Shown one piece after another: positions 16,885-18,842 of a DNA stretch of 64,000 nt (position 1 is the first letter of the stretch; each line of letters starts with the position of its first letter). The notes below the pieces were generated by a model, which was not told where the DNA came from, did not search any database, and saw nothing but the letters and a program-made list of their open reading frames with translations. Origin of the DNA: Rhodopirellula sp. (GTDB lineage Bacteria > Planctomycetota > Planctomycetia > Pirellulales > Thermoguttaceae); NCBI GenBank assembly GCA_012728855.1, contig JAAYEH010000380.1, positions 1-64,000 on the forward strand. The letters run 5' to 3'. The position numbers and the translations under genes are program-made.

Positions 16885-16998
16885 ATCCTCGGACCGGTGC
16901 AGCCCCAGATAGAGGCGGTGATCCCGGCCGGGGATGCTCTGGTGCTCGACGAAGGCTTGCCCGTTGGGGTGGCGGCGGTACTTGGGCGTGTGAGCCAT
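16885..16998 (-). pseudogene. Integrase N-terminal remnant (arm-DNA-binding region)
   Basis: From the ATG at 16998 the minus strand reads MAHTPKYRRHPNGQAFVEH followed by IPGRDHRLYLGLHRSED. This is the opening of planctomycete tyrosine-type integrases (MAKTPKYRxHxxxGQAxVxxxGRDxYLG). Homology stops near 16890; the rest of the reading frame has no integrase pattern and no catalytic domain. It lies 3' of tRNA-Arg. I see this as a decayed integration scar. Confidence 0.6.
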
Positions 16999-17020
16999 CG
17001 GCTGGGCTCCTCCGCGGGGC

Positions 17021-17046
17021 AAAAACGTATCGGACGATACGTTTTT
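17021..17046. terminator. Perfect hairpin with A/T-flanked stem, probable bidirectional terminator
   Basis: AAAAACGTATCG, a 2-base loop, then CGATACGTTTTT: a perfect 12-base stem whose ends are A5 and T5, so it can act in both directions. It lies 73 bases past the 3' end of tRNA-Arg and would end that transcript. Confidence 0.65.
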
Positions 17047-17118
17047 CTTCCCGTCACACGCCGCTCCGCCAGAGATGGCGGGGATGCTAAGTCTAGCTCT
17101 CGGCAGGACTTAATTCAG

Positions 17119-17192
17119 TACACCCCACTGGGCTCGAACCAGTAACCTTCGGTTCCGTAGACCGATGCTCTATCCAATTGAGCTAGGGGTGC
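17119..17192 (-). tRNA. tRNA-Arg (anticodon ACG)
   Basis: The minus strand folds as a complete cloverleaf of 74 bases. The acceptor GCACCCC pairs with GGGGTGT (one G-U). The D stem is GCTC/GAGC, the anticodon stem TCGGT/ACCGA with loop CTACGGA (anticodon ACG, arginine), and the T stem ACTGG/CCAGT with loop TTCGAGC. The discriminator is A and CCA is not encoded. Integrase remnants on both sides indicate that it has served as an attachment site. Confidence 0.93.
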
Positions 17193-17233
17193 TTGTCTTC
17201 CAAAACCTTTACTGGCAAAGGGTTTCGGATTAG

Positions 17234-17263
17234 GCTATATGGCCGTGTCAATAAATCTGTCAA
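17234..17263 (-). promoter_or_regulatory. Promoter of tRNA-Arg
   Basis: On the minus strand TTGACA (17263-17258) is followed after 17-18 bases by ATATAG/TATAGC (17240-17234). The likely start of transcription is about 30-35 bases before the mature tRNA 5' end. A second TTGACA at 17251-17246 overlaps the spacer. Confidence 0.55.
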
Positions 17264-17386
17264 TAAAATTCGACCATGCGCGGCACACCTTGCGGCGCGT
17301 GAAAGCCGTGCTTGTCGAGGTCGAGTTCGCCATGGTCATGTACCGCATGACCTAATCATACTCCATCGAGGCCGAGGCGCAAAGGG

Positions 17387-17770
17387 ATGGGAAAACGGAA
17401 GCGGGGCCGAAAGAAGGGGAGCCGGAACAAGGGGTACTTCTTTCGGCCGAAACGCGGGTGGTTCTTGGTTGACACCAATGGCAAGTTCGTACCGCTCTGC
17501 TACCAGGACGGCCAACGGATCCGCGACCAGGACAACGATTCCCAAGTCGTTCGAGAAGCCTATCAATGGTACTTAGCTCTCCAGAAGGAGGGCAAGCAGC
17601 AAGCCAGCGGAACCTCGCCGAACCCAATCACGGTCCAGGAAGGAGGATCGCGAAGCCGAACGGATCCATCCCGGTTATGGAACGCTGGCGGCCGTCCAGT
17701 TGACCCCGTTGCACATCGACCAGTGGATCGCCGCGCACAAGGATTGGAGCCCAGGCGGGTTCCGGGTATC
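17387..17770 (+). pseudogene. Site-specific integrase remnant, frameshifted and truncated
   Basis: The frame starting at 17387 reads MGKRKRGRKKGSRNKGYFF and RPKRGWFLVDTNGKFVPLC, the beta-rich arm-binding start of planctomycete integrases, and continues through VREAYQWYLALQKEGKQQA. Near 17640 homology moves to the next frame: EDREAERIHPGYGTLAAV, then LTPLHIDQWIAAHKDWSPG, the core-binding (SAM-like) domain. After about 17770 the similarity ends, so the C-terminal catalytic domain with its Arg-His-Arg-Tyr residues is missing. One frameshift plus a large 3' loss makes it non-functional. It lies about 190 bases upstream of tRNA-Arg. Confidence 0.65.
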
Positions 17771-17911
17771 TTCAATATCAGTGCCAATGAGGGGTGCCGG
17801 AAATCGCGAATTCGAACCCGTGATTTTCGTAAGCACCTTGCCTCCATTATACTTGCAACGAGCCGCCATTAACGGGATGTCGGCCAGAAAGACGTTGGCC
17901 GATGACGTTCA

Positions 17912-18202
17912 ATGAGTGAGGTTGCCGAAAACCACGGGCGTCCCGTTGTCGTTCGCAATGCGACGCGCATTGGAATGCTGATCGGAGCGGGTGTCGCTTT
18001 GCTCTGGACCAGAGACATCCTCAGCTTCGCACATCGCCCGATCGAGACCGACGAACTGGGGCTCTACCAACTGTTTGCCGTCGCCTATTGCATATTCTGC
18101 GTAATCATGTTTTCAGTCCTCGTAGCTGGCGGAGCAATTGTTGGATGGGTCTCAGGAATCTTGCTGGTCCGCAATCGTGATCGGGCATCACGACGTCGAT
18201 GA
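17912..18202 (+). CDS. Small membrane protein of unknown function
   Basis: 96 residues with two hydrophobic segments (about 21-36 IGMLIGAGVALLW and 50-85 LFAVAYCIFCVIMFSVLV through GILLV) and a basic C-terminus (RNRDRASRRR), consistent with two membrane spans and the tail in the cytosol. I recognise no family. No strong ribosome-binding site is visible before the ATG. It lies inside the decayed integration locus, so it may be cargo or a chance frame, although the hydrophobic pattern argues that it is real. Confidence 0.4.
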   Translation: MSEVAENHGRPVVVRNATRIGMLIGAGVALLWTRDILSFAHRPIETDELGLYQLFAVAYCIFCVIMFSVLVAGGAIVGWVSGILLVRNRDRASRRR

Positions 18203-18245
18203 GCAGAACGGCCTTGCAGTGCTTATCGCCAACATCGAAGGCCCG

Positions 18246-18533
18246 CTAAGTCGCCGCATCCATGCCGCGGACGCCTTGCTTGTGGTTCTGACTATCCTGT
18301 TCAGCGCACTCGGCGGTGCCTTCCCGCTTCTCCCCCGGCACCAAATCCCTCCTCTGCAACTCATCCACAATCGCCTCCATCTGCGACACGTGGATGATCC
18401 GGTACCGCCCGGCCCGCATCCCGATCCTGAGCTTGGCCACGACGTCCCGCATGACGTCGCCGGAGATCGGGAAGCCGTACTCGGCCTCGATCCGCTCGAT
18501 CGCCCCGGTAGTCGTCAGAAAATGGTCGCTCAT
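18246..18533 (-). CDS. Small orphan protein downstream of the terminase remnant
   Basis: 95 residues starting MSDHFLTTTGAIERIEAEYGF, mostly alpha-helical, with a mid-section RIGMRAGRYRIIHVSQMEAIVDELQ that could be a small winged-helix or DNA-binding helix pair; the function is not recognised. The start is strongly supported: GAGGAGG lies 5-6 bases before the ATG. It begins 9 bases after the terminase remnant's stop on the same strand, so it probably belonged to the same phage-like operon. The C-terminus is polar and low in pattern. Confidence 0.5.
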   Translation of the reverse strand: MSDHFLTTTGAIERIEAEYGFPISGDVMRDVVAKLRIGMRAGRYRIIHVSQMEAIVDELQRRDLVPGEKREGTAECAEQDSQNHKQGVRGMDAAT

Positions 18534-18542
18534 TTGGCCTCC

Positions 18543-18842
18543 TCAGGGCACCGCCCTTTCGTCGATGAGTCCGTCTTGCCCAAGTCCGGAGTTGACCAGG
18601 TGCTCGCACATCCGCATCCACGTACAGCAGTCCGTTACGGCCGCAGGCCAATAGGATGAACGCGCAGTAGTCGCTTTTGTCGCTGCCGCCCAGAGACGGA
18701 TCGACCGCCAGCACTTTCCAGAGGATCTGGTCCGCGGAGGGCCAGTCGTCGAACCAGCAGTCCTGGAAGTAGCCGGCCAGGAATCCCGTGCTGGTCTGCT
18801 CGGGCGGCTCGCACTGGTCCAAGTTGTCCCACTGCCAGCCCT
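18543..18842 (-). pseudogene. Phage terminase large-subunit remnant
   Basis: After an in-frame stop near 18841 the minus strand reads WKVLAVDPSLGGSDKSDYCAF then ILLACGRNGLLYVDAD, here split at fewer than 20 residues: VLAVDPSLGGSDKSDY and LLACGRNGLLYVDAD. This is the strand-1/strand-2 part of the RNase H-like nuclease domain of terminase large subunits (first metal-binding Asp in AVDPS). The N-terminal ATPase part is missing and a frameshift near 18610-18625 moves the end to another frame (HLVNSGLGQDGLIDERAVP). It is truncated and non-functional. Confidence 0.6.

Follow-up and report, generated by a model that had tools for sequence, protein, structure and literature searches.

A decayed mobile element beside a tRNA-Arg(ACG) gene of Rhodopirellula sp. 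and a Pirellulales integrase family that probably enters through the 5' end of tRNA genes

In the Islander survey of genomic islands in tRNA genes, 3,760 of 3,919 islands displace a 3' fragment of the tRNA gene and 159 a 5' fragment, and the table given there places the crossover only at the anticodon loop or in the T-stem/junction region (PMC4383910). The pTN3-like integrases of archaea use the 5' half of the tRNA gene, which is then expressed from the integrase promoter; a review that treats them describes 5'-half use as seldom met in bacteria (PMC8371274). Of 88 phage-related sequences integrated at tRNA genes in Sinorhizobium meliloti, 9 have an attR made up of the 5' end of the tRNA gene (PMC11476347). 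The locus described here lies in a stretch of 64,000 nucleotides of Rhodopirellula sp. (contig JAAYEH010000380.1, positions 1 to 64,000), referred to as the window, and consists of a complete tRNA-Arg(ACG) gene with the start of a broken tyrosine integrase gene, INT2, off its 5' end. The right side of this locus is very probably a decayed element whose integrase belongs to a Pirellulales family with the 5' ends of tRNA genes, mostly of tRNA-Arg, as its insertion sites. The parts of the locus on which this reading is based are, by position in the window:

17118-17192, minus strand: complete tRNA-Arg(ACG) gene (ARAGORN; Rfam, 62.6 bits)
17170-17192, minus strand: tRNA nt 1-23, the stretch duplicated in the intact element of the relative G164; attL core by homology
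17193-17245, no strand: stretch directly before the tRNA, judged element-borne from its homology with intact elements
17246-17255, plus strand: first copy of the putative arm-type repeat, TGTCAATAAA (repeat listing and motif scan)
17258-17267, plus strand: second copy of the putative arm-type repeat, TGTCAATAAA (repeat listing and motif scan)
17387-17641, plus strand: INT2, the N-terminal 85 codons of a tyrosine integrase, broken (profile match)
17613-17750, plus strand: second piece of INT2, out of frame with the first and covering profile positions 128-173, beyond an internal deletion
17790-17797, minus strand: candidate decayed distal end, a copy of tRNA nt 1-8 (longest tRNA-5'-anchored match rightward)
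17798-17870, no strand: possible displaced native upstream region of the tRNA, judged from its place right of the candidate distal end

Scans of the locus with ARAGORN and Rfam detected no second tRNA, and the first 49 nt of the tRNA-Arg(ACG) gene are matched nowhere else in the same genome at three or fewer mismatches. The integrase remnant aligns at 17390-17641 (+) with positions 4-85 of the family profile (4.1e-37) and, in another frame, at 17613-17750 with positions 128-173 (6.3e-14). An intact catalytic domain was not found; the window copy is a pseudogene that covers only the N-terminal model positions 4-85 and 128-173. It has suffered an internal deletion and a change of frame and has lost its catalytic half. 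An initial annotation of this DNA had named a complete tRNA-Arg(ACG), a frameshifted integrase remnant at 17387-17770 to its right and a decayed integration locus. The tRNA and, by way of the right-hand remnant, the decayed locus were borne out, as was the integrase; the frameshift alone falls short of the damage. A second remnant of the INT2 family, differently deleted, is present in the same genome at a contig end (L151:153-380, G000:C570).

The start of INT2 as a query found matches in 7 of 147 genomes of relatives, and with a profile built from four sequences the family was detected at E<=1e-8 in 27 of 396 genomes from the order, in some through the catalytic-side part of the profile alone. 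The five loci from named genomes belong to metagenome-assembled genomes of Pirellulales, Planctomycetaceae or Pirellulaceae. One locus (L264) was recovered from viral contigs, and a 176-aa query found no match in a phage collection. Among 24 loci with the INT2 N-terminus, 18 are at a tRNA-Arg gene (anticodon ACG, CCT or TCG), one is at tRNA-Asn and five are at no tRNA; the 18 include the G011 locus, which was assigned from a DNA similarity of 37 bp together with a weak profile match (E 0.025) and which has 150 bp in common over the tRNA and its upstream sequence. If the window and the very weak L089 match (E 0.025) are left out, the tRNA-Arg share is 16 of 22. An independent scan agreed with the tRNA association at five of five named loci. 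In all 19 tRNA-adjacent loci the integrase lies off the 5' end of the tRNA in divergent orientation, at a distance of 58-228 bp, and the integrase reading frame beside the tRNA is whole in G164, G180, G056, G153 and G148.

The converse sampling gave a different picture. None of 69 tRNA-Arg(ACG) loci collected regardless of INT2 carries the INT2 N-terminus (30 with flanks of 1.5 kb and 39 fetched; L213, which has no ACG tRNA, was dropped, and two of the 69 extend less than 300 bp on the integrase side); marginal matches of the catalytic half were seen in L156 (E 0.0097) and L193 (E 0.047). The tRNA pattern was matched in 111 of the 147 genomes, and the association of INT2 with tRNA-Arg(ACG) is known from other searches in G000, G011, G016 and G045. 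The tRNA-Arg(ACG) gene is an occasional, not a permanent, target of the family. A tree of the N-terminal pieces was too poorly resolved to decide whether target choice follows descent. In G376, two members of the family (L137 and L138), one at tRNA-Asn and the other at no tRNA, have similar flanks.

The organization expected of a tRNA island, namely an integrase flanked on one side by a whole tRNA and on the other by a fragment of the tRNA end in the same orientation, was encountered in G164, G148 and G153. In the complete genome G164, tRNA nt 1-23 recur as an exact copy 58 kb past the integrase (E 1.7e-7), and 137 nt inside this end there is a 21/21 copy of the element's repeats. The corresponding end in G148 is a 22-nt exact copy (tRNA nt 1-20 and 2 upstream nucleotides) at a distance of 16 kb (E 3.8e-7), with the repeats 140 nt inside, and in G153 an 18-nt imperfect copy, GCTCCCGTAGCTCAGGGG, with 5 mismatches in 21, at 14.8 kb, the repeats lying 122 nt inside. 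A scan of 19 loci anchored on TGAGCTA yielded three distal ends, and its reverse-complement control yielded none. The direction of entry is disclosed by G144, which is of the same genus as G164 and in which tRNA-Met, tRNA-Arg and the region of the upstream gene follow one another without interruption, as in an empty site. Both flanks of the G164 element, the left one (77%, 318 bp) and the one past the distal end (79%, 2.6 kb), have their counterparts in G144, where they overlap exactly in tRNA nt 1-23. The element therefore entered through the 5' end of the tRNA, and the former upstream region was moved to the far side.

The G164 element, a conjugative-type element of 58 kb, carries genes for a TrwC relaxase (2.3e-63) and a coupling protein (3.4e-28). 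The cargo of the G148 element includes a tail tape measure protein (9.6e-31) and an excisionase-like protein. Elements of different kinds thus enter by the same tRNA 5'-end site. That the integrase is instead a resident, vertically inherited neighbor of tRNA-Arg, and not mobile, would agree with the occurrence of the same neighbor in several families and with members that have no recognizable cargo; it is most improbable, since N-terminal matches are confined to the 7 of 147 genomes, the neighbors comprise three isoacceptor types and tRNA-Asn, intact members have conjugation or phage genes and flanking repeats, and the empty site in the same genus (G144) contradicts it. In G153 (L142), where the tRNA is tRNA-Arg(CCT), the far-end copy reads GCTCCCG and the present tRNA GCCCTCG; if the junction is right, the element would have altered the acceptor-stem sequence of the host tRNA.

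Between the tRNA and the integrase there are two copies of a TTTANTGNCA-like motif with a 12-bp period, a motif that was defined after inspection of the sequences. At least one copy occurs in 15 of the 19 loci and two copies occur in 10, nearly always at -62 to -64 and -74 to -77 from the tRNA, with one stray second copy at -14; the window holds both, at -63 and -75. Among 68 tRNA-Arg(ACG) loci free of INT2 the motif was found in one, there at -13. Because the spacing between repeats and tRNA is constant over hosts and isoacceptors, the approximately 60 bp preceding the tRNA must travel with the element. The repeat unit is similar at the two ends of an element and different between elements, a comparison made partly by eye, and the tandem repeats are putative arm-type binding sites of the integrase.

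At the right of INT2, the longest match anchored at tRNA nt 1 is 17790-17797, the sole 8-mer among 46,600 positions; in controls of 17,100 and 46,600 positions the longest anchored match was 7. It sits 40 nt beyond the last INT2 piece and is a candidate for the distal end of the window's element. If it is correct, the terminase fragment, the orphan reading frame and the repeat at 18226-18292, described below, lie outside the element. The stretch 17798-17830 was considered as a tRNA remnant and discarded, with an unremarkable fold (z -0.94) and no second tRNA detected.

Several observations weigh against integration through the tRNA 5' end as described, some of them in the window and others in the family. 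The candidate match is only 8 nt long, the TGAGCTA-anchored scan gave no match in the window, and a gapped alignment of the core was as good in 115 of 1000 shuffles and in 16 of 210 window tiles. It is quite possible, if the lesser probability, that the remnant belongs to the INT2 family and 17790-17797 is a chance match, the true distal end being elsewhere or lost. Chance is favored by the lack of significance of the gapped alignment, by the empty scan and by the sequence beyond the match (17798-17870), for which no homology was found. It is opposed by the uniqueness of the longest 5'-anchored match (8 nt versus 7 in the controls) and its place 40 nt past INT2, a coincidence of roughly 1% as judged post hoc. 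In the family, the TGAGCTA-anchored scan found no distal copy in 16 of the 19 loci, the window included, though many of them are cut off by the end of a contig or have a decayed integrase. In G159 and G180 no distal copy turned up within the 24-30 kb examined, and a 12-nt match in G196 was not confirmed as a distal end, as its flank does not adjoin the tRNA in the relatives searched. Of the five INT2 loci with no tRNA, one has 152 bp to the contig end and the others have room. In the viral contig L264, about 180 bp separate the two repeat pairs, with no tRNA-Arg-like core between them; the pairs precede the integrase and are arranged as expected of an unintegrated attP. Among the full-length members scanned, that of G164 alone passes the Pfam Phage_integrase cut-off (29.1 bits versus 27.1; it also matches phrog_1 at 6.5e-25), that of G056 stays below it, and those of G148, G153 and G180 have no match; in an alignment of full-length members the usual Arg, RH and Tyr motifs were recognized by eye. 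Finally, a scan of the window region for a sigma-70-like consensus promoter returned 0 sites, which has little weight either way in this phylum.

In the mechanism that we favor, the first ~18-23 nt of the tRNA, comprising the 5' strand of the acceptor stem and the D-arm, are repeated at the distal end of the element, as intact relatives show. The integrase gene of these relatives is placed immediately upstream of the tRNA and points away from it, the tandem repeats of 12-bp period are found both at ~63 and 75 bp before the tRNA and at ~120-140 bp inward of the distal end, and the former upstream sequence of the tRNA is now beyond the distal end. Strand exchange probably takes place near tRNA nt 8-14 (TAGCTCA), and the restored tRNA would be transcribed from element sequence. 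In the window, the left end with the tRNA, both repeats and the integrase start has been kept and nearly all else deleted, down to the candidate end at 17790-17797. Any tRNA promoter in 17193-17245 would then have come with the element. A wider proposal is advanced more tentatively, as a close question on which we lean slightly to the negative: that the acceptor 5' strand and the D-arm, with an overlap near TAGCTCA (nt 8-14), constitute a fourth tRNA subsite, that each integration swaps the tRNA promoter for one carried by the element, and that this capture of the promoter serves as an addiction mechanism. If so, a host with seemingly one copy of this arginine tRNA would depend on an element end, which would explain why, in the window and in G011, the 200 bp next to the tRNA outlast the rest of the element. 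Odd scars consisting of an integrase start and a tRNA would be explained as promoter-retaining remnants. Entry at the 3' side leaves tRNA expression untouched and entry at the 5' side takes control of it, so that regular 5'-side entry in free-living bacteria makes the capture of essential tRNA expression by mobile elements testable. For island finders, the signature would be a 5' fragment, a divergent integrase and repeats at -63 and -75, which searches biased to the 3' end can miss.

Compared with the described systems, the INT2 elements share with the tRNA islands of Islander the tyrosine integrase, the whole tRNA at one end and the displaced fragment at the other; they differ from the islands documented there in that the shared stretch stops at tRNA nt 20-23, before the anticodon arm (PMC4383910). 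With the pTN3-like integrases of Thermococcales they have in common the use of the tRNA 5' half and the parting of the restored tRNA from its original promoter. The pTN3-like integrases are archaeal and use a shared site of 41 bp that includes the anticodon, in contrast to the 20-23 nt of the INT2 family, and their integration splits the integrase gene, which stays whole in intact INT2 members (PMC8371274, PMC5495485). The 5'-end prophages of S. meliloti have other hosts and other integrases, and in the available portion of that study fixed repeats or promoter replacement are not seen (PMC11476347). From the phrog_1 phage integrases, which the G164 member matches, the INT2 family is set apart by its own N-terminal domain, GRKxGSRNKGYFxRxGRGW, for which there is no Pfam family of its own. 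Among open-licence papers on planctomycete tRNA-Arg integrases, D-loop crossover and Pirellulales prophage integrases, the INT2 family is not described by title or abstract. 5'-end integration is known but rare, and the INT2 elements are a variant of it.

The remaining features of the locus are:

16885-16998, minus strand: INT1, which may be what remains of the N-terminus of another integrase, 3' of the tRNA (weak)
18226-18292, no strand: repeat dispersed in this genus, separate from the element (copies elsewhere in the genus)
18246-18533, minus strand: small orphan reading frame of 95 aa (coding signal)
18604-18840, minus strand: internal fragment of a terminase large subunit, start of the nuclease domain (similarity to relatives)

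INT1 is a 38-aa piece that reads away from the tRNA. It has no Pfam or PHROG match, and two apparent relatives in the same genome (E 0.05 and 0.48) proved unrelated on inspection. In 1.9 Mb of planctomycete DNA that was fetched, it comes closest to the N-terminal part of an integrase of G216 (54.5% over 33 columns, E 7e-4), encoded at L140:15736-17094 and assigned to Pfam Phage_integrase at 6.5e-15. A non-integrase stretch (L007/L097), itself fetched with the INT1 query, reached E 0.001, and the reversed query reached at best 0.16; a search of plasmids gave 6 records with a best E of 1, none annotated as integrase. INT1 may, on this weak similarity, be the remnant of the start of another integrase. 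A perfect 12-bp inverted repeat, AAAAACGTATCG/CGATACGTTTTT, at 17021-17046 between the tRNA 3' end and INT1 is a candidate for the tRNA terminator or an INT1 operator.

The initial annotation had taken the locus for a repeatedly used hotspot, with integrase remnants of two different elements on the two sides of the tRNA. The remnant on the right stands (4.1e-37); that on the left is weak, and with it the claim of two elements, which finds no help in direct repeats of the tRNA 3' end, proposed at the time as a check: none was listed around the locus (one of the listings comprised the 20 largest of 35 families), and the INT2 family uses the 5' end. The term hotspot is fair for the family, with 18 of 24 loci at tRNA-Arg, but INT2 is uncommon at tRNA-Arg(ACG) (0 of 69). 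A conventional hotspot, at which two elements entered at the tRNA 3' end and the integrase on the 5' side is a rearranged leftover, is very improbable. INT1 on the 3' side, reading away from the tRNA, would fit it, and in G045 (L094) two unrelated integrases do flank one tRNA-Arg(ACG), one on each side, the arrangement that had been suggested for the window. Against it, all 19 INT2 loci that have a tRNA close by place the integrase on its 5' side, the distal copies are of the tRNA 5' end, and no 3'-end repeat was listed near the window locus; for INT2 it is contradicted by the pair G164 and G144.

Codon usage calls a single reading frame, 18246-18533, in the interval that separates the gene at 15018-16463 from the metallo-hydrolase gene (18845-19609). 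Its coding signal is good, but the remaining 146 of the 147 genomes yielded no relative at E<=0.01, and viral contigs yielded none. The terminase fragment at 18604-18840 (minus) comprises 79 aa from inside the large subunit, with 100% identity to itself and up to 53% in relatives. It had been placed at 18543-18842 in the annotation; the terminase assignment holds, and the coordinates and frame do not. Read at 18543-18842 as given the frame is different, and the empty results obtained from it are uninformative; in the correct frame no match was found in viral contigs. Relatives of the terminase occur in 95 of the 147 genomes, its own included, commonly once per genome, and one of them (L074) matches phrog_38 at 1.7e-86 and Terminase_6C. 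In several fetched loci (among L061, L067, L070-L074 and L078) they belong to a recurring cassette with a ParB-like protein, an ATPase-acetyltransferase fusion, small and large terminase, portal and capsid-type genes, which may be a very common prophage or a gene-transfer-agent-like cluster. The fragment is located past the point where the INT2 element probably ends and has no tie to either integrase, so that its interpretation as an integration scar of this tRNA is not sustained. It is unlikely that the fragment and the small reading frame belong to the same dead element, a prophage reaching 18842. Their closeness and the existence of prophage-type members of the INT2 family (G148) speak for it. 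Against it, the two lie past the candidate distal end, a terminase of this type is elsewhere accompanied by its own small terminase and by portal and capsid genes, and none was seen in the fetched INT2 loci.

The flanking genes of the window showed no synteny with the tRNA-Arg(ACG) loci of relatives, just scattered weak protein matches. The metallo-hydrolase at 18845-19609 matches Pfam Lactamase_B_2 (2.9e-17), in agreement with its earlier designation as a core-type metallo-hydrolase as far as the hydrolase is concerned. It is not clearly a core gene because a copy at E<=1e-30 is present in just 21 of 60 genomes, its own included. The repeat at 18226-18292 (~67 bp) recurs at two further places in the same genome and at four places in G001 of the same genus, with 74-91% identity, and several of the copies lie just after the end of a gene.

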